A stretch of 21,218 nt of DNA from a virus: positions 1 through 21,218 of IMG/VR virus record IMGVR_UViG_3300033153_009979, one strand, 5' to 3'. The notes beneath the pieces were generated by a model that saw only the letters and a program-made list of their open reading frames with translations, was not told the DNA's origin and ran no database searches. Below are positions 3,734 through 20,269 of the stretch, piece after piece (position 1 is the stretch's first letter; every line of letters starts with the position of its first letter). Both the position numbers and the translations under genes were made by a program.

Positions 3734-4483
3734 ATGAGTTTATCAAATCCGAGAAAAGTAAATCCTGCAACAAAATTTATTGATTGGTCGGGCAGTAAAG
3801 GACAATTTAAATATTATGATAAAAAAAAAAAGGAAAATGTATTTTTTGAAGAAGACATTTACATTATTCCTTTAGATGATTTAAACACAATCAGAGGTTT
3901 TGACAGTGATAATCAATGTGGATACTATTCAAATGAAGTAAAATATTTGAATAAAGAAGAAATGTTTGTAAAATCTTTTAAAGGCGGTCAAATTGCAAAA
4001 GGTTTATACAATAATTTAAAACTACCTGCCGGATGTAAATTTTCAAAATCTGTATATGCCGCAATGATAATTTATGATGAAGAAAATACAAGTATTGAAC
4101 TTGTAAATTTTCAATTTATCGGAGCCGCTGTTAAGGCCTGGTTTGATGCAAAAATAAAAGTGGAAAGTGGTAATATTATTAAGTTATCAGCATCAACTGA
4201 ATTATTAAAAAAAGGAGCAACTGAATATTATGCTCCAAAGATTTTAAAAGTAGGTAAAAGAAATGATATTTTAAATAAGTGTGTTGAAATGGATAAAGAG
4301 TTGCAAATTTATTTAAAATCTTATTTTAATCAAGATCACAGCGAAGAAACTGAAAAAATTGCGAAAAAAGAAGCTCAAGAGGATATAACAAAATCAGAAG
4401 AAGAAATTACTGCTGAAATGTATATGAAAGAATCGGAGAAAGTTATTGATGATTTTAATGATGTTGATGATTTACCGTTTTAA
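3734..4483 (+). CDS. SSB-like single-stranded DNA-binding protein with acidic tail
   Basis: A 249-residue protein starting MSLSNPRKVNPATKFI, a start I recall in Bacteroidetes-phage DNA-binding proteins. Residues about 1-170 would be an OB-like core. About 195-235 is an acidic Glu/Lys-rich linker. The last residues (DDFNDVDDLPF) form an acidic tail ending in Pro-Phe, as in bacterial SSB (DDDIPF) and analogous to the acidic tail of T7 gp2.5, used to recruit partners. It would coat single-stranded DNA in replication and recombination. The fold assignment is inference; the tail is seen directly. TAACTAAAA lies 20 bases before the ATG. Confidence 0.7.
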   Translation: MSLSNPRKVNPATKFIDWSGSKGQFKYYDKKKKENVFFEEDIYIIPLDDLNTIRGFDSDNQCGYYSNEVKYLNKEEMFVKSFKGGQIAKGLYNNLKLPAGCKFSKSVYAAMIIYDEENTSIELVNFQFIGAAVKAWFDAKIKVESGNIIKLSASTELLKKGATEYYAPKILKVGKRNDILNKCVEMDKELQIYLKSYFNQDHSEETEKIAKKEAQEDITKSEEEITAEMYMKESEKVIDDFNDVDDLPF

Positions 4484-6235: not shown

Positions 6236-6844
6236 ATGAAAACAGAGGTAATAATGAAACGTGAGTTATTCGGAAGTGATATTTCACAAAAAAGTAAATC
6301 TGAATTTTTTAGTGCAACTGATTTGGTTAGAGCCGGCAATAAATGGCGGATGCTGAACAGTTTACCTTTTTTTAATATGCAAGAATGGCTAAGGCAAAAA
6401 TCTACAAAAGATTTTATAAAAGAACTTGAAAAAGTTTATGAAAAGGTTAAGATTGCAGGAAGGGGGAGGAATGCTCATACTTGGGTGCACCCATTTTTGT
6501 TTATTGATTTAGCTTTAGCAATAAATCCTAAATTAAAAATTGAAGTTTATAAATGGATTTATGATGAACTTATAAAATATCGAAATAATTCCGGAGATTC
6601 TTATAAAAAAATGACAGGAGCATTATGGTTAAATTGCAGTAACAAATCTAAATTTAAAGATGGAATAAAAACAACTGCAAATATGATAAAATTAGCTTGT
6701 AAGGTAAAAAATTGGGAAACAGCAAACGAAAAACAATTGCATTTAAGAGATAAAATACATGAAAATATTTCTCTCTTATGCGATGTTTTAAAAGATAATA
6801 ATAAAGCTGTTAAAATAGGAATAATGAAATCGTTAGAAAAATAG
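6236..6844 (+). CDS. KilA-N domain protein
   Basis: 202 residues. The KilA-N DNA-binding domain spans about 23-112: FFSATDLVRAGNKW at the start, then a helix (FNMQEWLRQ), and the hallmark GRGRNAHTWVHPFLFIDLAL with INPKLKIEVYKWIYDEL. The C-terminal part (about 120-202) is helical and not a recognised domain. KilA-N proteins are DNA-binding phage regulators, antirepressors or host-takeover proteins. Its own promoter with an operator-like repeat suggests it is separately controlled. Confidence 0.88.
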   Translation: MKTEVIMKRELFGSDISQKSKSEFFSATDLVRAGNKWRMLNSLPFFNMQEWLRQKSTKDFIKELEKVYEKVKIAGRGRNAHTWVHPFLFIDLALAINPKLKIEVYKWIYDELIKYRNNSGDSYKKMTGALWLNCSNKSKFKDGIKTTANMIKLACKVKNWETANEKQLHLRDKIHENISLLCDVLKDNNKAVKIGIMKSLEK

Positions 6845-9313: not shown

Positions 9314-9524
9314 TTTAGAAATAACTGAAAAAGATTGGAATAAAAATACTGTTTCTTTTTGTGGAGAAGAAAATGAAACCATTTCGGTATACAGAAAATG
9401 CCCAAAATGTTGTAGGTATATCAAATCCGGAGATTTGTTAATGAACGGAAACGGAGACGTGTTTCTTGAAAATTGGACTTGCTCTGTTTGTGGTGAAATT
9501 AAGCCGTTTTTTGATAGATATTAA
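9306..9524 (+). CDS. Small zinc-ribbon protein
   Basis: 72 residues with CPKCCRYIKSGD and CSVCGEIKPFF, CxxC pairs about 27 residues apart, forming a treble-clef or ribbon-like zinc site. It overlaps the end of the upstream zinc-ribbon gene by eight bases and its TAA stop is inside TAACTAAAA, which lies 19 bases before the next ATG. Role unknown. Confidence 0.6.
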   Translation: MFDLEITEKDWNKNTVSFCGEENETISVYRKCPKCCRYIKSGDLLMNGNGDVFLENWTCSVCGEIKPFFDRY

Positions 9525-9540
9525 CTAAAAAATAAATATT

Positions 9541-9702
9541 ATGAAAACAATATCATTATCAAAGATTAAAAAAGAAATAAGATATTATCATTTGTTTTTT
9601 TGTCCATATTGTGATGGGATGAATGAATTAAGCTATTGTATTACATATGAAGAAACAATATTTTGTGAACATTGCAATAAAGAAATTGAAATTACTGATT
9701 AA
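9541..9702 (+). CDS. Very small zinc-ribbon protein (53 residues)
   Basis: Starts MKTISLSKIKKEIRYYHLFF, then CPYCDGMNEL and FCEHCNKEIEITD: two CxxC pairs 22 residues apart, a minimal zinc ribbon. The start has the ATATTATGAAA context. The last third of the gene is duplicated at 9893-9934, where it ends a 22-codon fragment. It is the last gene before the first element-C promoter. Confidence 0.6.
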   Translation: MKTISLSKIKKEIRYYHLFFCPYCDGMNELSYCITYEETIFCEHCNKEIEITD

Positions 9703-9704
9703 TT

Positions 9705-9734
9705 TTTGCAGGTTAAAATAAATTAGTATATTTG
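9705..9734 (+). promoter_or_regulatory. Bacteroidetes-type promoter of element C copy 1
   Basis: TTTG at 9705-9708, 18-base spacer, TATATTTG at 9727-9734: an excellent match to the Bacteroidetes vegetative promoter. Transcription would begin shortly after, about 10 bases before the first strand of the P1 helix of element C. The copy at 10182-10212 has the same layout. Confidence 0.8.
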
Positions 9735-9750
9735 TGAACGTAATTAAATG

Positions 9751-9862
9751 AACGCTAATGAAATTTGAAATTTTTAACATACAAATAAATCCCGGTAACG
9801 GACAGAATAGGCAGTTTACAAATTAGCGTTTGGCTGTCTTTTTTTGTTCCTACCGGTTTTTT
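9751..9862 (+). ncRNA. Pseudoknotted leader element C, copy 1
   Basis: Pairings seen: P1 AACGCTAAT (9751-9759) with ATTAGCGTT (9822-9830); P3 GGACAG (9800-9805) with CTGTCT (9834-9839); P4 CCGGTA (9792-9797) with TACCGG (9851-9856). P1 crosses P3 and P4, giving a pseudoknot. A local CCG-GTAA-CGG hairpin competes with P4 and with the first bases of P3. T-runs follow the second strands of P3 (9839-9845) and P4 (9857-9862), as in intrinsic terminators. All three pairings are kept in copy 2 with compensatory changes. Known riboswitch class not recognised; a transcription attenuator is the best guess. Confidence 0.65.
9758..9826 (+). CDS. Leader peptide of element C copy 1 (22 residues)
   Basis: ATG at 9758, overlapping the first strand of P1, opens 22 codons (MKFEIFNIQINPGNGQ...) ending at TAG 9824-9826 inside the second strand of P1. 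It aligns with the 21-residue peptide of copy 2 (MKIELIISNIPGIGQ...): MK.E at the start and PG.GQ in the middle are shared. The downstream ATG at 9866 is in the same frame, exactly 42 bases after the stop, with no other stop between. Confidence 0.5.
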   Translation: MKFEIFNIQINPGNGQNRQFTN

Positions 9863-9865
9863 ATT

Positions 9866-9934
9866 ATGACATATCGAAAACAAAATATAATGTTTTGTGA
9901 ACATTGTAATAAAGAAATTGAAATTACTAATTAG
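9866..9934 (+). pseudogene. Chimeric 22-codon fragment after element C copy 1
   Basis: ATG at 9866 begins MTYRKQNIMFCEHCNKEIEI. The end duplicates the C-terminus of the zinc-ribbon gene at 9541. The TATCGAAAACAAA at its start (9872-9884) also occurs at 9977-9989 in the next gene. It therefore looks like a recombination scar joining pieces of two neighbours, placed where a leader-controlled gene should be. It could still be translated, but only one CxxC pair remains. Confidence 0.55.
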
Positions 9935-9955
9935 TTTTTTTTAAAAATAAATATT

Positions 9956-10180
9956 ATGAAAATAGATTTTGATAATTATCGAAAACAAACGGTTAATCAG
10001 TATAATGATTTAACTGAAAGTTTTAAAAATATTGAATTTGAAGATATTACAAGGGAAGATTTTGAATTTATTAAAAAATAAGTAAAGGATTTAAGGACTT
10101 ATATCGTTACGCTAACCGCTTTAGTTGATTCTGACGGTGAATTTAAATCTTTAGATATTCCGGTTAATGTTTTGAAATAA
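9956..10180 (+). pseudogene. Small gene interrupted by an in-frame TAA
   Basis: ATG at 9956 opens 41 codons (MKIDFDNYRKQTVNQYNDL...) to TAA at 10079-10081. The same frame then continues open for 32 codons (VKDLRTYIVTLTALVDSDGE...SLDIPVNVLK) to TAA 10178-10180. The second part has no start of its own and reads like real coding sequence, so the simplest reading is one protein of about 74 residues broken by a nonsense change (a sense codon such as TAT to TAA). Alternatives: the 41-residue product is the true protein, or the stop is read through. Protein family not recognised. Confidence 0.5.
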
Positions 10181-10181
10181 C

Positions 10182-10212
10182 TTTTGCAAGTTGAAATAAT
10201 TTGTTATCTTTG
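10182..10212 (+). promoter_or_regulatory. Bacteroidetes-type promoter of the replication operon
   Basis: TTTTG at 10182-10186, 18-base spacer, TATCTTTG at 10205-10212. The start point would fall just before the first P1 strand of element C copy 2 (10225). The surrounding CTTTTGCAAGTTGAAATAA resembles TTTTTGCAGGTTAAAATAA at the first copy, so promoter and leader were duplicated together. Confidence 0.8.
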
Positions 10213-10224
10213 TAAGGAATTAAA

Positions 10225-10335
10225 AAGCCACTCATGAAAATAGAATTAATAATATCTAACATACCCGGCATCGGGCAAATATTAGACGGTTTTGCGTAGT
10301 GGCTTCCGTCTTTTTTTGTTCCTGCCGGTTTTTTT
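10225..10335 (+). ncRNA. Pseudoknotted leader element C, copy 2 (replication operon leader)
   Basis: Pairings: P1 AAGCCACT (10225-10232) with AGTGGCTT (10298-10305); P3 AGACGG (10284-10289) with CCGTCT (10306-10311); P4 CCGGCA (10265-10270) with TGCCGG (10323-10328). A local CCCG-GCAT-CGGG hairpin (10264-10275) competes with P4. The second P1 strand abuts the second P3 strand, allowing coaxial stacking. T-runs follow P3 (10311-10317) and P4 (10329-10335). Relative to copy 1, P1 is different in sequence but still paired, and P3 and P4 each show a base-pair swap. It lies directly before the replication initiator ATG at 10339, so it probably sets initiator and helicase-loader expression. Confidence 0.7.
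10234..10299 (+). CDS. Leader peptide of element C copy 2 (21 residues)
   Basis: ATG at 10234, two bases after the first strand of P1, opens 21 codons (MKIELIISNIPGIGQ...DGFA) ending at TAG 10297-10299 inside the second strand of P1. Ribosomes on this frame would open P1, P3 and P4 in sequence, as in leader-peptide attenuators. The initiator ATG at 10339 is in the same frame with 13 open codons between. Confidence 0.55.
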   Translation: MKIELIISNIPGIGQILDGFA

Positions 10336-10338
10336 ATT

Positions 10339-11082
10339 ATGAATAGTGGGTTTATATATTTGCATAGAAAAATAAAAAATAGTTGGATTTGGAAAAAACC
10401 TGAATATTTTCAATGGTTTATTCATATTTTATTCAGGGCAAATTTTAAAGACAAAAAAATATTAGTTGGTTCTGAATTGTATGATATAAAAAGAGGTCAA
10501 TTTATTACATCAATTGAAAAATTGACGTGCGAATTAAATAATTGTACAACTCAAAAAATAAGAACTTTTTTAAAGTTGCTCGAAAAAGATAATATAATTA
10601 GCCGAAAAACAACATCAAAACTAACAATAATAACAGTCTGTAAATATGATAGTTATCAAACGCAGCAACAAACCAATAACAAACCAATAACAAACCGGCA
10701 ACAAACCGGCAACAAACCGGTAACAACAGAGAATAAGGAAGAAATAAAGAAGAATAAAGATAATAATGTAAATAAAAAAGAATATCCTGATTTTTTCAAT
10801 AAAAAATTAATTTCTGTTTATAAAGAATTTTTGCAATTCCGAAAAGAGAAAAAAAAGACAATAACAAAAACCCAAAAGCCTCGTTTTATTGAAAAATTAT
10901 CAAAGTTATCAAATACAAATCCTGAAAAGGCTGAAAAAATATTAATTCAAAGTATAGAAAATGGTTGGCAGGGAATATTTGAACTAAAAACAAACAACAA
11001 AAAGAATTCAAACGCCATAAATAAACAGGACATTGAGAATTTTCAGGGAAATAATCCTGACAGATTAAAATTTAAGAGATGA
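10339..11082 (+). CDS. Phage replication initiator (winged-helix, intragenic origin)
   Basis: 247 residues. The N-terminal domain (about 1-105; SGFIYLHRKIKNSWIWKKPE, then FITSIEKLTCELNNCTTQKI and IRTFLKLLEKDNIISRK) matches the winged-helix start of phage replisome organisers. A low-complexity linker (about 106-150) is encoded by 11-bp DNA iterons. The C-terminal domain (about 151-215) contains EKAEKILIQSIENGWQGIFE, typical of DnaT/DnaD-like ends. It would bind the iterons and load the helicase via the DnaC-like protein encoded next, overlapping by four bases (ATGA). Expression is probably controlled by element C. Confidence 0.8.
   Translation: MNSGFIYLHRKIKNSWIWKKPEYFQWFIHILFRANFKDKKILVGSELYDIKRGQFITSIEKLTCELNNCTTQKIRTFLKLLEKDNIISRKTTSKLTIITVCKYDSYQTQQQTNNKPITNRQQTGNKPVTTENKEEIKKNKDNNVNKKEYPDFFNKKLISVYKEFLQFRKEKKKTITKTQKPRFIEKLSKLSNTNPEKAEKILIQSIENGWQGIFELKTNNKKNSNAINKQDIENFQGNNPDRLKFKR
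10668..10722 (+). repeat. Five 11-bp iterons, candidate replication origin
   Basis: Five exact-period units lie end to end: ACAAACCAATA twice (10668, 10679), ACAAACCGGCA twice (10690, 10701), ACAAACCGGTA once (10712). The 11-bp period is one helical turn and is not a multiple of three, so it was not generated by protein repeats. Placement inside the initiator gene parallels lambda O, whose ori iterons lie within O (established knowledge). Inferred to be the initiator binding site. Confidence 0.65.
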
Positions 11083-11747
11083 AAAAGATAAACGAAATAA
11101 TAAATGAATTTTCTGAAAATTCAAGTAAAAACGAAATTGAAACCGTTAATATTGAATGGGATAAACACGCAAAAATCATTCAATATATTGCCAACAAATA
11201 TGTTTATAATTTTGAAATTGATGATAATAATAAAGATGTTTTAAAGCAGTTACTTCTTTATTTTACAGGGAATTCAGATTTTAACGGCTCATTAAATAAA
11301 GGGCTAATGTTAGTCGGCGGAGTAGGGACCGGAAAAAGTTTATTTTTTAAAATATTCAAAGAATACACAATGAATGTTATTAAAAAAAACAGCTATCAAA
11401 TGCACACAGCAATAGATATTATTGATAGTGTAAATATTTCGGGAGTTAAAATTTTTGAAGAATATTCACATCGTTACGAGGGGAAGCGTGCATATCCTAT
11501 ACGATGTTATATAGATGATATTGCAAGTGCAAATGAAAATGTGAAGTATTTTGGGACAGATACAAGTGTAATTGAACAGCTCTTATCAATAAGATATAAT
11601 ATTTTTGACAAATATGGGACATTAACACATACTTCGTCAAATAAATATCCGAATCAATTATCAGAAAAATATGATCAAAGAATTATCGACAGAATGATTG
11701 AAATGTTCAATATTATTGAATTATCGGGAGATTCAAGACGCAAATAA
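11079..11747 (+). CDS. DnaC-like AAA+ helicase loader
   Basis: 222 residues. Walker A GGVGTGKS (80-87), Walker B CYIDD (143-147), sensor-1-like THTSSN (183-188) and arginine-finger region YDQRIIDRM (198-206, R201 and R205) are all in DnaC/IstB order. It lacks an extra catalytic domain. It would use ATP to load the replicative helicase onto the origin opened by the initiator encoded just upstream (ATGA overlap). No helicase gene is seen nearby, so the host DnaB is the likely partner. Confidence 0.9.
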   Translation: MKKINEIINEFSENSSKNEIETVNIEWDKHAKIIQYIANKYVYNFEIDDNNKDVLKQLLLYFTGNSDFNGSLNKGLMLVGGVGTGKSLFFKIFKEYTMNVIKKNSYQMHTAIDIIDSVNISGVKIFEEYSHRYEGKRAYPIRCYIDDIASANENVKYFGTDTSVIEQLLSIRYNIFDKYGTLTHTSSNKYPNQLSEKYDQRIIDRMIEMFNIIELSGDSRRK

Positions 11748-12008: not shown

Positions 12009-12800
12009 ATGGAAAAAGTAATTTATTTAAGAGATAAAAATTATCAATGGAAAAAATTTGAATATGATAATATAAAAGAATTATCAGAAGATTTCAAAAA
12101 TAGAAATATTGTTTTCGGAAAAAATTTTAAAATAGGATATAATTTTAAAGTCGGATATAATTTTAAAGCCGAAAATAATTTTAAAGCCGGAGATAATTTT
12201 GAAGCCGGAGATAATTTTGAAGCCGGAAATTATTTTAAAGCCGGAAATAATTTTAAAGCCGGATATAATTTTAAAGCCGGAAATAATTTTGAAGCCGGAA
12301 ATAATTTTAAAGCCGGATATAATTTTAAAGCCGGAGATAATTTTGAAGCCGGAAATAATTTTAAAGCCGGATATAATTTTAAAGCCGGAGATAATTTTGA
12401 AGCCGGAGATTATTTTGAAGCCGGAAATAATTTTAAAGCCGGAGATAATTTTGAAGCCGGAAATTATTTTGAAGCCGGAAATAATTTTAAAGCTGGAAAT
12501 AATTTTAAAGCCGGAGATAATTTTAAAGCCGGAGATAATTTTGAAGCCGGAGATAATTTCAAAATTATCTATCACATAATTATTCCAAATAATTACAAAT
12601 ACAGATCAAGATGTTATTTTAATTTAACTAACAAAAAATGGTATATTCAATTTGGATGCTATTTAAGGACATACGAAGAATGGGTTGAGGATTTTTGGAA
12701 TAATGACAAAGAATTTCCAAATAATAATTCTCAAACATCAAACAAAAGATTAGAACTTTTTAATTTGTATAAAATTATAATAAAAACATTAGAAATTTAA
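12009..12800 (+). CDS. Hexapeptide-repeat protein (24 repeats, predicted beta-helix)
   Basis: 263 residues. Residues 1-39 are a capping segment (LRDKNYQWKKFEYDN). Residues 40-183 hold 24 six-residue units of the form F-(K/E)-A-G-(D/N/Y)-(N/Y). About 184-263 is an aromatic C-terminal domain (CYFNLTNKKWYIQFGCY). The period of six, with a bulky hydrophobic residue every sixth position and Gly in each turn, fits a left-handed parallel beta-helix, as in hexapeptide-repeat proteins; 24 units would make about eight coils of three faces. Role unknown: adhesion, DNA mimicry or scaffold are possibilities. Lys/Glu alternation gives a mixed surface charge. Confidence 0.75.
   Translation: MEKVIYLRDKNYQWKKFEYDNIKELSEDFKNRNIVFGKNFKIGYNFKVGYNFKAENNFKAGDNFEAGDNFEAGNYFKAGNNFKAGYNFKAGNNFEAGNNFKAGYNFKAGDNFEAGNNFKAGYNFKAGDNFEAGDYFEAGNNFKAGDNFEAGNYFEAGNNFKAGNNFKAGDNFKAGDNFEAGDNFKIIYHIIIPNNYKYRSRCYFNLTNKKWYIQFGCYLRTYEEWVEDFWNNDKEFPNNNSQTSNKRLELFNLYKIIIKTLEI
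12126..12557 (+). repeat. 24 tandem 18-bp coding repeats
   Basis: Twenty-four units built on TTTRAAGCCGGARATAAT, varying mainly at the Lys/Glu codon (AAA/GAA) and at the fifth and sixth codons. Because the period is a multiple of three, other frames on both strands are also open; those are shadows. Near-identical units make copy-number change by slippage or recombination likely, always in frame. Confidence 0.9.
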
Positions 12801-14247: not shown

Positions 14248-14278
14248 TTTGCAATTAAGCTAAAAATAAGTAACTTTG
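14248..14278 (+). promoter_or_regulatory. Bacteroidetes-type promoter of the Rha-family gene
   Basis: TTTG (14248-14251), 19-base spacer, TAACTTTG (14271-14278): a full match. The ATG of the downstream gene at 14284 is only five bases past the -7 element, so its mRNA is predicted to be leaderless or nearly so, unless translation begins at the second ATG (14329). Confidence 0.75.
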
Positions 14279-14283
14279 ATATT

Positions 14284-14652
14284 ATGGAAATAAAGAAATT
14301 TGAGAATATTGAACTTGTAAAAGAAAATATGACAAGTTTAGAACTTGCAAATTTTATAGGTAAAAGACATGCTGGCATGTTGAGAGATTTGCGAAATATG
14401 TCTGATGCGTGGGAAAAAGTAACTAAACGCAAATTTGCGTTCAGTGAATATAAAGATTCAACGGGTAGAATGCTGCCAATGTTTGAGCTTTCAAAACCTG
14501 AAATATTATTTATTGCATCAAAATATAATGATGAATTAAGAGCAAGAATAATAACAAGACTTTTTGAATTAGAAATTTATCAAAAAAGGATTATGCAAAT
14601 TCAATTAGACAAACTTTGGGACAAATCATATCAAAAAGATTTATATTACTAA
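14284..14652 (+). CDS. Rha-family phage regulatory protein
   Basis: 122 residues. MTSLELANFIGKRHAGMLRD (16-35) followed by FSEYKDSTGRMLPMFELSKP (53-72) and a helix YNDELRARIITRLFELE (81-97) is the Rha (pRha) domain pattern, in which '.S..vA..fgkrH..vlrdI' is the signature. Rha proteins interfere with phage growth or regulate it in hosts lacking certain factors. No ANT or other C-terminal domain follows. Possible alternative start at 14329 if the transcript needs a leader. Confidence 0.8.
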   Translation: MEIKKFENIELVKENMTSLELANFIGKRHAGMLRDLRNMSDAWEKVTKRKFAFSEYKDSTGRMLPMFELSKPEILFIASKYNDELRARIITRLFELEIYQKRIMQIQLDKLWDKSYQKDLYY

Positions 14653-16654: not shown

Positions 16655-17173
16655 ATGACAAAAAATAAACAAAAAATAATAGATTATGCAAAATCGTTGT
16701 ATACGCAGTATGACAGTGAGGGAAAGAAACCATATTCATTAAGAAATATAGAACTAAAAATTTCACAAAAATTTCACAAAAAGTTCACATACAGGACTGT
16801 GAAAAATTGGGCTGAAAAATATAACTGGGATAAATTAAATGAAAAAATAAAACAACAATCAATAGAAAAGGCAACTGAAGAAAAGTTTACAAAAGAAGAA
16901 CAGTTAATTGAAAAAGAAAGCGATAAACTCGCTAAAGATTATAAAAACGCTGAAACACTTGCAAATATCGGTTATAAAATAGTTATTGAGGCATACAGCG
17001 GAAGTGAGTGTGCTTTAATATCAGTCCGAGATGCTTTATCTGCAATAAAAACCGGAACAGATATCAAGTTTAGAATAATGGAGGTTCCTGAAAAGTCAGG
17101 AGATTTAAAAGGAATAATCTTATCAAAAAAACAAATCAAAAATATTAATAACGCTTTGAACGATGCAATTTGA
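16655..17173 (+). CDS. Terminase small subunit (putative)
   Basis: 172 residues. The N-terminal region (about 25-62: PYSLRNIELKISQKF, YRTVKNWAEKYNWD) is an HTH with the 'W..ky.Wd' ending typical of small terminases. The middle (about 64-105) is a charged coiled-coil likely used for ring assembly. The C-terminal part (about 105-172) is alpha-beta and would contact the large subunit. Placement immediately before the large subunit, overlapping by 11 bases, is the strongest support. It would recognise the packaging site; candidate repeats lie inside its own gene at 16762. Confidence 0.75.
   Translation: MTKNKQKIIDYAKSLYTQYDSEGKKPYSLRNIELKISQKFHKKFTYRTVKNWAEKYNWDKLNEKIKQQSIEKATEEKFTKEEQLIEKESDKLAKDYKNAETLANIGYKIVIEAYSGSECALISVRDALSAIKTGTDIKFRIMEVPEKSGDLKGIILSKKQIKNINNALNDAI
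16762..16803 (+). repeat. 11-bp-spaced TTCACA repeats in the small terminase gene, candidate pac site
   Basis: TTCACA occurs at 16762, 16773 and 16784, exactly 11 bases apart (one helical turn), and an inverted copy TGTGAA at 16798-16803. The period is not a multiple of three. In several phages (P22, SPP1) the packaging site lies in or next to the small terminase gene and is bound by that protein (established knowledge). Assignment here is inference. Confidence 0.45.
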
Positions 17174-18620
17174 TAATCTTTCGCAGGAGGAATTATCTGT
17201 AATTAAAGTAAGGTGTGATAATAGTTTATTATATTTTACACGTTTTTTTTTTAGAGTACTTCGAGGCTCAAAATTCATATTAAATTGGCACCACGAGCTA
17301 ATTTGCAAAGAACTTGAAAATGCTGCAAAATATAAATATGAATTTCTTAATATTAACATTCCGCCTCGCTTTTCAAAAACCGAATTAGTTGGAATTAATT
17401 TTATTGCATGGATTTTATCAAAAAATCCTAAAGCAAATTTTCTTTATATTACTGCGTCTGACGAACTTCGCTCCGAAACTTCTACAAGAATAAGAGATAT
17501 TATTACCCACCCTGTTTTTTTTCAATTATACGGAATAAAAATAAAAAGAGATCAGTCAGGGAAAAATCTTTGGCGTACAAATTTTGGGGGTGGGTTAAAA
17601 ACAGCTACAATATTCGGACAGATTATAGGATTTGGAGCCGGTAGAATGGTAGATAATTCAGAACTGACGGATTATATTAAATTATTTGAGGGTTCAATAA
17701 TTTTAGATGATATAAATAAGATTATTGATACCGAAATGGATAATGCCTTAAATCAAAAAGCAAATAAAACAATATTTACAACTATCCTTTCGAGAAAAAA
17801 CACACAAGAAACCCCATTTATTAATATACAACAGAGGGCCGGCATAAATGATGCAGCCGCTGTTTTAATGGAATTTTTTAAAGATGAAAAAATAAAAAAC
17901 ATCATATTACCGGTAATTTCAAAAGGGAAACCACTTTGGGAATGGAAATTGAATAAAGAAAAGATTGAAAAATTAAGAACATCTCCGTTTACTTCAAGAA
18001 TTTTTGAAACACAATATATGCAAAATCCCCAAGAAGATGAGGGCAACAAATTCAAATCTGAATGGTTTGAAATAATAAATAAAACATCTGTTCCGAATGC
18101 CGTAAAATGGCAGATGTTTATTGACGGAGCATATACAAAATCAACTGCGAATGACCCGACAGGTTTAATGATTTGCGGCAAATACAAAGAAATATTATAT
18201 ATTAAAATAAGCATTGACAAATATCTTGAAATGCCTGAATTATTGAAATTTATTGATAATTTTTCAACAGCAAACGATTTTAGAAAAGAATATTCTGTAT
18301 ATATAGAACCGAAAGCATCCGGAATAACTTTAGCCCAACTTTTAAATAAAAAAGGATACAATGCAATAAAAATTAAACACAAATACGTCAATAAAAGCAA
18401 AGAAGAAAGAGCAGATGCAGGGTTGGCGTTTTGTGAAAGTGAAAAAATAAAACTAATAAAAGGAGAATGGAACAATCATTTTTTAGAACAATTAAGAAAA
18501 TTTCCAAATGATTTGCATGATGAACATGTAGATTTAATTTCATATGCTATAATTAAGAATTTTATATTAAGTCGAAAACAAACTCAAAGAATAACAAATT
18601 TATCTCAAATAGGACTATAA
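17163..18620 (+). CDS. terL: Terminase large subunit
   Basis: 485 residues. ATPase: adenine-side region ILNWHHELICKELE (39-52), Walker-A-like IPPRFSKTE (66-74), Walker B GSIILDD (177-183), coupling TTILSRKNT. The linker is QYMQNPQEDEGNKFKSEWF, typical of large terminases. RNase-H-like nuclease: D321 (MFIDGAYTK), E382 (VYIEPKASG) and D457 (DEHVDLISYA). It cuts concatemeric DNA and pumps it into the prohead with ATP. Full length for the family. Confidence 0.95.
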   Translation: MQFDNLSQEELSVIKVRCDNSLLYFTRFFFRVLRGSKFILNWHHELICKELENAAKYKYEFLNINIPPRFSKTELVGINFIAWILSKNPKANFLYITASDELRSETSTRIRDIITHPVFFQLYGIKIKRDQSGKNLWRTNFGGGLKTATIFGQIIGFGAGRMVDNSELTDYIKLFEGSIILDDINKIIDTEMDNALNQKANKTIFTTILSRKNTQETPFINIQQRAGINDAAAVLMEFFKDEKIKNIILPVISKGKPLWEWKLNKEKIEKLRTSPFTSRIFETQYMQNPQEDEGNKFKSEWFEIINKTSVPNAVKWQMFIDGAYTKSTANDPTGLMICGKYKEILYIKISIDKYLEMPELLKFIDNFSTANDFRKEYSVYIEPKASGITLAQLLNKKGYNAIKIKHKYVNKSKEERADAGLAFCESEKIKLIKGEWNNHFLEQLRKFPNDLHDEHVDLISYAIIKNFILSRKQTQRITNLSQIGL

Positions 18621-18633
18621 TAAAAAAATATTG

Positions 18634-18641
18634 TATATTTG
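18634..18641 (+). promoter_or_regulatory. -7 element before the portal gene
   Basis: TATATTTG (18634-18641) is a perfect TAnnTTTG match, four bases before the portal ATG (18646). No TTTG -33 is visible at 18-20 bases upstream. If used, the portal mRNA would be leaderless. Confidence 0.4.
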
Positions 18642-18645
18642 CACT

Positions 18646-20061
18646 ATGAGAGCCTTAGAAATAATAAATTCAGATTTGCCGATTAAAAAGATAATTAAAT
18701 TTTTAAAAACCGAAAAGCCTGAACATCTTCAAAAATATATAGAGTATTACAATGGTATTCAAGACGTAAAAGATAGACCTCATCCTAACGATCCAAGCAA
18801 AAGAGATAAATTAAACAAATTAGTCTTTAATTTATATAAAAAAATTACCGATACGGCTGTATTTTTTCTATTTGGTAAAGACCCTGAACTTATCCTTGAC
18901 AATCCTACTGATGAAAATCTTAAATTATTTGAAGAATTTAAAAAATCTTATAAAGATGCCAAAACAGATGCAATTAATAATAAAGTAGGTGTTGAAACTT
19001 TAGGTTATTCAGAATCGGCAGAATTTATATATGCTCAAGACGGCAAGGTAAAATATCAGTTTTTATCTGCAAAAACAGAGCAGTTGTATCCTTTTTTTGA
19101 TGAAAAAGGTAATTTAGATGCCTTTATGAGAATCTATAAATTGAATGAACTTATTAATTTAGAAGTTAAAGAAGTAGAGTATACAGAAATCTACACAGAA
19201 AAAGAAATGTTTAAATATAGTAAAATTGGTAGTGTATATACTCAAATACCTTATATAAATGAAAAAGGAGAAATATCTGATACTTTAACATACGAGAAAA
19301 TACCTATTGTTTATTATTCAATCGACAAACCGCTTGCGTGGCAAGTGAAGGATTTATTAGATAGATATAATTTAATGTCTTCAACTTTAGGAGATGTAAA
19401 TGATTATTTTGCGTTTCCTATTTTAATGTTAATCGGGGAGCTTGTTGAATCGATAAAAGACAATAATAAAGAGCTTACAGAAGAAGAAGAAATATTAATA
19501 AGAAATATTACAAGCGTCATGCACCTTGCAGGGATGGATGAAAACGGGGATAAAATAACTGCCGATGCAAAATATTTGGTTTGGACGCAGCGGCCGGAAT
19601 CAGCAATCTTTGAACTTGAAAATTTATACGATATAATCTTATTTTTAACATCAACTGCTGACTTATCGTTCAAAAATTTAAAGGGATTAGGAAATGTTAC
19701 CGGTGTAGCTCTTTTATTAATGTTTACTGATTCAATTGCATTAAGTGAAATTTTACAAAATGTTTTCTTTAAATTTCAAAGGCGTATAAATGTACATAAA
19801 TCAACACTTAACAGTATATCTGTTCCGGATAATAAATATGATGTTTTAGATATGAGTATGAAGTTTAGTAATCCTATTCCGGAAAACGTTAAAGAATTAA
19901 TTGAAAGTTTATCAAATGCTAAAATGTCAGGTATATTAAGTACAGATACAGCATTAGCAAACAATCCGTATGTGAAAAATGTTGAAGATGAAAAAAAATT
20001 ATTAAAAGAAGATGAACAATTTGAGGCAAATCAAATTGAAGCAGGAAGTTTTAATCTTTGA
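18646..20061 (+). CDS. Phage portal protein (SPP1 gp6-like)
   Basis: 471 residues from ATG 18646 (MRALEIINSDLPI), which I prefer over the TTG at 18631 because the latter lies in a promoter-like element. The body has the portal pattern: an N-terminal YYNGIQDVKDRPHPNDPSKR stretch, FNLYKKITDTAVFFLFGKDP, and the downstream alpha-rich stem and crown with LTSTADLSFKNLKGLGNVTG and RRINVHKSTLN. Position directly after the large terminase is decisive. It forms the dodecameric DNA channel of the head. TGA stop. Confidence 0.88.
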   Translation: MRALEIINSDLPIKKIIKFLKTEKPEHLQKYIEYYNGIQDVKDRPHPNDPSKRDKLNKLVFNLYKKITDTAVFFLFGKDPELILDNPTDENLKLFEEFKKSYKDAKTDAINNKVGVETLGYSESAEFIYAQDGKVKYQFLSAKTEQLYPFFDEKGNLDAFMRIYKLNELINLEVKEVEYTEIYTEKEMFKYSKIGSVYTQIPYINEKGEISDTLTYEKIPIVYYSIDKPLAWQVKDLLDRYNLMSSTLGDVNDYFAFPILMLIGELVESIKDNNKELTEEEEILIRNITSVMHLAGMDENGDKITADAKYLVWTQRPESAIFELENLYDIILFLTSTADLSFKNLKGLGNVTGVALLLMFTDSIALSEILQNVFFKFQRRINVHKSTLNSISVPDNKYDVLDMSMKFSNPIPENVKELIESLSNAKMSGILSTDTALANNPYVKNVEDEKKLLKEDEQFEANQIEAGSFNL

Positions 20062-20216
20062 AAACAACAGAAGTATATAAGATAAATGATATAAACAAGT
20101 ATCAATATTCTTATTTTATTGAAGCACAGAAAGGATTTTCAATTGTAATTACAAAAATAGATAGGATTGTGTTTTATAACATACGGATAAATACACGTAA
20201 AACTCAAAAAAAATAG
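20058..20216 (+). CDS. Possible small ORF with TTG start (52 residues)
   Basis: A frame overlapping the portal stop opens at TTG 20058 (LKTTEVYKINDINKYQYSYF...) and runs 52 codons to TAG 20214-20216. No ATG is in frame. The composition looks coding (FIEAQKGFSIVITKIDRIVF), but its last ten codons lie in the 31-bp tandem repeat, suggesting that the 3' end was rewritten by the duplication. A degenerate or truncated gene is as likely as a functional one. Confidence 0.35.
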   Translation: MKTTEVYKINDINKYQYSYFIEAQKGFSIVITKIDRIVFYNIRINTRKTQKK

Positions 20217-20248
20217 TATAAATACACGTAAAACTCAAAAAAAATAGT
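20187..20248 (+). repeat. Perfect 31-bp tandem repeat (two units)
   Basis: Units 20187-20217 and 20218-20248 are identical (ATAAATACACGTAAAACTC at the start, then an A8 run and TAGT). Each contains the TAG stop of the frame above. TACACGTA is nearly a palindrome. It lies just before the gene at 20270. Candidate protein-binding site or recent slippage duplication. Confidence 0.85.
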
Positions 20249-20269
20249 AAATTGTATAAAAAAAATAAT

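Follow-up and report, generated by a model that had tools for sequence, protein, structure and literature searches.

A duplicated, pseudoknotted leader RNA of a probable Bacteroidota phage as a candidate ribosome-controlled attenuator of a DnaD-like replication initiator

What is the role of a structured leader RNA that occurs twice in a phage genome upstream of the replication operon, and could it set the amount of initiator that the phage makes? The two copies (9751-9862 and 10225-10335) lie in the virus record IMGVR_UViG_3300033153_009979, of which we analysed a 21.2 kb stretch (21,218 nt, 26% G+C), hereafter the window. The window encodes a terminase (phrog_38) and an SPP1-like portal at 17163-20061, and the nearest relatives of the terminase are those of the Tenacibaculum phage JQ (49% across 61% of the query) and the Croceibacter phage P2559S. 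Because of these terminase relatives and the presence of strict promoters of the Bacteroidota type, the host is likely to be a member of Bacteroidota, probably of Flavobacteriia. The operon 3' of copy 2 codes for DnaD-like and DnaC-like helicase loaders (Table 1); protein searches recovered no viral relatives of either the DnaC-like protein or the protein encoded at 3734-4480. The window additionally contains an 18-bp unit repeated in tandem about 25 times at 12116-12563, encoding NF(K/E)AG(D/N/Y) hexapeptides within the frame 12009-12800, and a perfect 31-bp tandem duplication at 20187-20249, at the end of the frame 20058-20216.

In each copy the helices P4, P3a and P3 form one continuous rod, whose 3' arm ends about 10 nt upstream of the ATG and is followed by a T-run leading into ATTATG. 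The 3' arm of P1 sits in the loop of P3 and its partner is the 5' end of the transcript, such that P1 crosses P3 and P4 as a pseudoknot pairing; the spacing from the P1 5' arm to P4 is exactly 32 nt in both copies. The positions of the copies, each behind its own Bacteroidetes promoter, were confirmed as originally predicted, as were the P1 and P4 pairings in both. The P3 pairing given for copy 2 also stands, but that given for copy 1 (GGACAG/CTGTCT) is an alternative rather than the homologous pairing, which is AGGCAGT/GCTGTCT; GGACAG is instead predicted to fall within P3a, a helix that copy 2 also has. Since P3a belongs to one continuous rod, the first T-run contributes to the rod's 3' strand and is not simply the tail of a second terminator. 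The T-run behind the P4 3' arm is intact in all three leaders known to us (tail scores 4.0-4.8), and the combination, in copies 1 and 2, of a stable, G+C-containing hairpin with a T6 or T7 run is that of a predicted intrinsic (Rho-independent) terminator.

Table 1. Coordinates of the two leader copies and of neighbouring features in the window
Feature	Position	Strand	Detail
Promoter, copy 1	9705..9734	+	Bacteroidota type, TTTGC...TATATTTG; strict pattern match
P1 5' arm, copy 1	9751..9759	+	AACGCTAAT; near transcript 5' end; contains AT of the small frame's ATG
Small frame, copy 1	9758..9826	+	MKFEIFNIQINPGNGQNRQFTN, then stop within P1 3' arm; start ATG 9758
P4 5' arm, copy 1	9792..9797	+	CCGGTA
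P3a 5' arm, copy 1	9800..9807	+	GGACAGAA
P3 5' arm, copy 1	9809..9815	+	AGGCAGT
P1 3' arm, copy 1	9822..9830	+	ATTAGCGTT; inside P3 loop
P3 3' arm, copy 1	9833..9839	+	GCTGTCT
First T-run, copy 1	9839..9845	+	T7; partly 3' side of P3a
P3a 3' arm, copy 1	9842..9849	+	TTTTGTTC
P4 3' arm, copy 1	9851..9856	+	TACCGG
Second T-run, copy 1	9857..9862	+	ATT ATG directly 3'; tail score 4.41
Remnant frame	9866..9934	+	22 codons, 3' of copy 1; end duplicates end of gene 9541-9702 (88% repeat)
Promoter, copy 2	10183..10212	+	Bacteroidota type, TTTGC...TATCTTTG; strict pattern match
P1 5' arm, copy 2	10225..10232	+	AAGCCACT
Small frame, copy 2	10234..10299	+	MKIELIISNIPGIGQILDGFA, then stop overlapping P1 3' arm; start ATG 10234
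P4 5' arm, copy 2	10265..10270	+	CCGGCA
P3a 5' arm, copy 2	10273..10279	+	GGGCAAA
P3 5' arm, copy 2	10284..10289	+	AGACGG
P1 3' arm, copy 2	10298..10305	+	AGTGGCTT; inside P3 loop
P3 3' arm, copy 2	10306..10311	+	CCGTCT
First T-run, copy 2	10311..10317	+	T7
P3a 3' arm, copy 2	10315..10321	+	TTTGTTC
P4 3' arm, copy 2	10323..10328	+	TGCCGG
Second T-run, copy 2	10329..10335	+	ATT ATG directly 3'; tail score 4.78
DnaD-like helicase loader / replisome organizer	10339..11082	+	Gene behind copy 2 leader; phrog_2514, 1.1e-33
DnaC-like helicase loader	11079..11747	+	Overlaps DnaD-like gene; phrog_3277, 9e-12

Bacteroidota promoters have the consensus TTTG/TAnnTTTG (PMC7366714), and under a strict form of this pattern (TTTGC, then TAnnTTTG) the window contains three promoters, two of which lie directly upstream of copies 1 and 2, with 12-16 nt between promoter end and P1 5' arm in both cases. 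The third (14248-14278) adjoins a frame at 14284-14652 without such a leader. At 6520-6610 of another contig (L007), whose terminase is 97% similar, a hairpin with a T-run (AAGCTCCGAGAGATCGGGGCTTTTTT) lies no more than about 70 nt behind a TATATTTG promoter, an arrangement that is possibly a short RNA gene.

The rods of copies 1 and 2 have predicted folding energies of -26.3 and -28.8 kcal/mol (RNAfold; z -4.5 and -5.0), as against -13.5 and -21.9 kcal/mol for the complementary strand, which folds worse because the copies use G-U pairs that are possible only in the RNA of the plus strand. The much better folding of the plus strand therefore indicates that plus-strand RNA is what has been kept. 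Dinucleotide shuffling reached P1 alone in 17 of 5000 cases for copy 1 and 37 of 5000 for copy 2, and the full architecture, with the T-run kept, in 4, 12 and 21 of 20000 for copy 1, copy 2 and a third leader (L015, below), i.e. a chance level between 2e-4 and 1e-3 for each leader. Scanned with a descriptor, the window gave scores of 51 and 53 for copies 1 and 2 and one weaker match (score 48), with zero matches in 100 Markov-shuffled windows; as the descriptor was composed after the leaders had been seen, these chance figures are guides rather than strict probabilities.

The third leader was found among relatives of the DnaD-like protein fetched by protein similarity, on the contig WJIO01000013.1 (L015). 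Here too a promoter (TTTG-N19-TATATTTG), P1, P3, P4, a T-run and an ATG follow one another in the same order in front of a DnaD-like gene. Its P1 (GTCACGAAG/CTTCGTGAC) differs in its letters from those of copies 1 and 2 and again has the 3' arm in the P3 loop, while P3 reads GCGGT/ACCGT and P4 ACCGGAT/GTCCGGT, followed by T5 and the ATG; in addition a further helix, GTCGTAC/GTACGAC, lies outside P1, and the rod contains a small hairpin. The sequence likeness, mostly confined to ACATACC..GG and TTCCT..CCGGTTTTT, is weak yet above that of shuffled sequences (1 of 2000 against copy 2, 6 of 2000 against copy 1). Across the three leaders 13 of 19 pairs are changed on both sides (7 of 8 in P1), none is broken and all 57 cells pair, counts that are not independent support, as the arms were chosen because they pair. 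Independent support for the L015 leader comes from its P1, which a test limited to the relevant region reached in 9 of 5000 shuffles, from the architecture test, and from a descriptor scan of about 1.07 Mb of mostly Bacteroidota phage DNA, in which nothing else equalled the score of the two copies. Two of the outcomes that the original prediction named as refuting it are thus partly averted, in that a related leader exists and that the pair changes in three leaders extend the covariation beyond two copies. Against this, a covariance model built on P4 and P3a of the two copies (R1) recovers both of these and misses L015. The L015 contig is binned as Ca. Poribacteria, but as this is the sole genome of 85 in that phylum to encode a DnaD-like protein, it is probably a misassigned phage piece of uncertain host; besides the DnaD-like gene it carries, by eye, a NinG-like gene. 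On the sequence evidence we consider the leader to be real, a conserved, covarying and pseudoknotted element known three times in two distantly related contigs.

The leader is rare in the sequences searched, which limits any claim of novelty. IMG/VR DNA-pattern scans for the shared 3' end gave nothing or chance matches in unrelated DNA, and with blastn each leader matched phages and plasmids only in promoter-like or low-complexity sequence. No such leader precedes the DnaD-like relatives L033-L038 and L011-L014 (L037 starts inside the gene and is not judgeable), the Poribacteria genomes contain it only in L015 itself, and the 193 genomes of the phylum of G008 (Omnitrophica) returned marginal covariance-model matches only and none by descriptor. 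No Rfam family reached its gathering threshold in the window and relaxed searches with the window leaders and L015 gave chance matches only, in keeping with the earlier view of an unrecognised RNA class. Searches of the open-access literature gave no account of such a leader in a phage.

A feature absent from the original prediction, which alters the likely mechanism, is a short reading frame (22, 21 and 29 codons in copy 1, copy 2 and L015). Its start codon lies in every leader at the 3' edge of the 5' arm of P1, from where the frame extends over the 5' arms of P4, P3a and P3. The frame of L015 (VNNLKNIPDMETDMETSQGGFFVTTVRHS) starts with GTG at 1191 and ends just before the P4 3' arm; in both copies about 40 nt separate the end of the frame from the downstream ATG. 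The chance of the observed frame-start position under shuffling was 0.28, 0.007 and 0.11 (product about 2e-4), figures that are post hoc. The distance from start codon to AACATA is 18, 24 and 15 nt, in each case a multiple of three, and between copies 1 and 2 the PGxGQ codons differ only at third positions, by changes that also preserve pairing. The frame may be translated. The peptides MKFEIFNIQINPGNGQNRQFTN, MKIELIISNIPGIGQILDGFA and VNNLKNIPDMETDMETSQGGFFVTTVRHS contain, by eye, no amino-acid codon run or stall motif of the sort expected of an amino-acid- or drug-sensing leader peptide. In copies 1 and 2 the stretch from the TAG to the ATG is open and in frame; read-through of the stop codon into the downstream gene was rejected, because the two copies read their shared letters in different frames and L015 is out of frame.

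Folding of successive prefixes, in which P1 and the rod are treated as exclusive because only nested structures are allowed (as a pseudoknot they could coexist), has P1 as the best structure first in all three leaders. Once the 3' arms have been made, copies 1 and 2 switch to the rod, while in L015 P1 with the extra helix remains best. Within nested folding, then, an earlier structure competes with the terminator as in alternative-structure attenuators, in agreement with the original proposal that P1 competes co-transcriptionally. The further proposal of an attenuator setting initiator and helicase-loader levels gains from this competition and from the lack of an Rfam match, but attenuation is a prediction, as is termination itself.

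Based on these observations we propose that the leader is most likely an attenuator of the phage replication initiator. That it attenuates transcription of the downstream gene, which for copy 2 and L015 is the DnaD-like initiator, is a view to which we incline somewhat, and the fuller explanation, a cis-acting, leader-peptide attenuator that lies between the gene and a promoter of its own, appears to us evenly balanced. A ribosome-controlled attenuator is favoured because P1, by covering the start of the small frame, would exclude the ribosome, and because a ribosome on the frame would cover the 5' arms of the terminator. On the nascent RNA the start codon of the small frame (21-29 codons) would lie at the free 5' end, bordering the 5' arm of P1. 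Without a ribosome there, this end would pair with the newly made P3 loop, shutting the small frame, and the P4/P3a/P3 rod would close at the T-runs, halting the polymerase just short of the replication gene's start codon. A ribosome trailing the polymerase would instead block P1 and open the 5' arms of P4, P3a and P3 at the time when termination needs them, allowing read-through, and the dose of initiator would thus track the ease of ribosome loading on the fresh transcript. In E. coli the translating ribosome represses almost completely a Rho-independent terminator that lies just behind a gene, which supports this reading, but terminators placed in the first 100 bp of coding sequence remain efficient (PMC4824070), which argues against the ribosome always arriving in time. 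Against our preferred explanation, too, the frame of L015 starts with GTG and extends further than those of copies 1 and 2; moreover, a ribosome at the TAG of copies 1 and 2 re-exposes the P4 and P3a 5' arms, and P4 could still form. The sign of control, with the ribosome as the on state and P1 as a latch on the off side, is offered tentatively, as something short of probable; P1 itself might be an antiterminator, in which case the sign would be reversed. More speculative, and on balance doubtful, is the idea that by docking the start of a tiny frame in the terminator loop the 5' end serves as a direct RNA sensor of host ribosome supply, and we are just as reserved about regarding such a sensor as an undescribed class of phage attenuator.

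The same features could in principle serve a translation switch, in which the whole transcript is made, the rod hides the start of the replication gene until translation of the small frame opens it, and the T-runs are incidental. The closeness of the rod 3' arm to the ATG and the small frame in all three leaders would suit such a switch, as would the role of the gene as a replication initiator, for which leader-peptide translation is needed in a plasmid case (PMC10286972). Yet the T-runs after P4, needless for translation control, are intact in every leader, and in both copies the small frame ends well upstream of the ATG, leading us to consider this unlikely.

The surroundings of copy 1 bear on a further alternative. 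The original placement of the leader upstream of the replication operon is true of copy 2, which precedes the DnaD-like and DnaC-like genes, but copy 1 precedes only the 22-codon remnant. A 58-bp repeat, 88% identical (9650-9707 and 9882-9939), has copied the end of the CxxC gene 9541-9702 behind copy 1, and recombination has therefore rearranged the leader region. Copy 1, which retains its promoter and all helices with no real gene following, could be a relic, could supply a short RNA, or could insulate copy 2 as a terminator. This retention, an apparently strong terminator and a docked 5' end that could protect a short RNA would all fit a stand-alone pseudoknotted small RNA, with the leader itself being a gene that ends at the terminator and acts in trans. 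We judge this no likelier than the translation switch: two of the three leaders, in two distantly related contigs, directly precede the start codon of a DnaD-like gene, a non-coding RNA needs none of the coding features of the small frame, and no trans target is known.

Pseudoknots overlapping terminators occur in riboswitches, which raises the possibility that a metabolite, the initiator or another phage protein binds the pseudoknot and picks between P1 and the rod, the frame being accidental. The initiator might also recognise the CCGGYA of the P4 arms, as this motif recurs in five 11-bp direct repeats, AACAAACC(AAT/GGC/GGT), at 10657-10726 within the DnaD-like gene. Most of the 24 CCGGYA occurrences in the window lie elsewhere, the letters of P1 vary freely across all three leaders with no conserved binding core outside P4, and no relation to an Rfam family was found; such a sensor thus seems to us a shade less probable than either preceding alternative. 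The 11-bp repeats themselves are possibly iterons of the phage replication origin. A role of P4 as a DNA operator for the initiator was set aside, both because CCGGYA is common in the window and because the strand asymmetry of folding favours RNA.

The nearest functional parallels to the proposed ribosome-controlled attenuator are the initiator leaders of plasmids, namely those of pT181/pIP501 and IncI. The rep attenuators of pT181 and pIP501 likewise have an initiator leader in which an intrinsic terminator immediately precedes the start codon and an upstream pairing competes with it (PMC5703833), but differ in that here no counter-transcript promoter was found, the 5' arm pairs with the terminator loop, and a small frame is present. 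Counter-transcript attenuation of that kind, in which antisense RNA bound to the leader would set off the terminator, is very improbable and was dropped for want of a promoter: although a terminator directly upstream of the replication gene is as in pT181 (PMC5703833), the minus strand has no strict promoter across the whole window, and none within or just after the leader, the only two -7-like minus-strand matches in 9501-11100 (10623 and 10908) being about the number expected by chance, and P1, unlike the pT181 pre-emptor, does not use the 5' arm of the terminator. The repZ leader of the IncI-complex plasmid ColIb-P9 has a leader peptide whose translation governs a replication initiator, as proposed for the small frame here, and, like our leaders, a long-range pseudoknot pairing (PMC10286972); the control there acts on translation and employs an antisense RNA, whereas here the structure ends in T-runs and no antisense promoter was found. 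Ribosome-controlled attenuators, among them those of ermK and mef(E)/mel, similarly have a short frame overlapping alternative structures before a terminator (PMC4335068), but our leaders lack a drug or amino-acid codon signature and place the start codon at the arm of the competing helix. With the structured families of Rfam they share a conserved, covarying leader, though none of these matches.

RNA control is well known for the replication initiators of plasmids, but we found none described for Bacteroidota phages in the open-access literature. If the leader works as proposed, it would provide a compact and testable case in which phage replication is tied to co-transcriptional folding and ribosome loading, in a phylum where the coupling of transcription and translation has been little studied, and it would define a new RNA family to search for. 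Were the more doubtful sensor reading also true, a single ribosome-loading event at the 5' end of the transcript would decide the production of the initiator and, with it, the replication of the phage.
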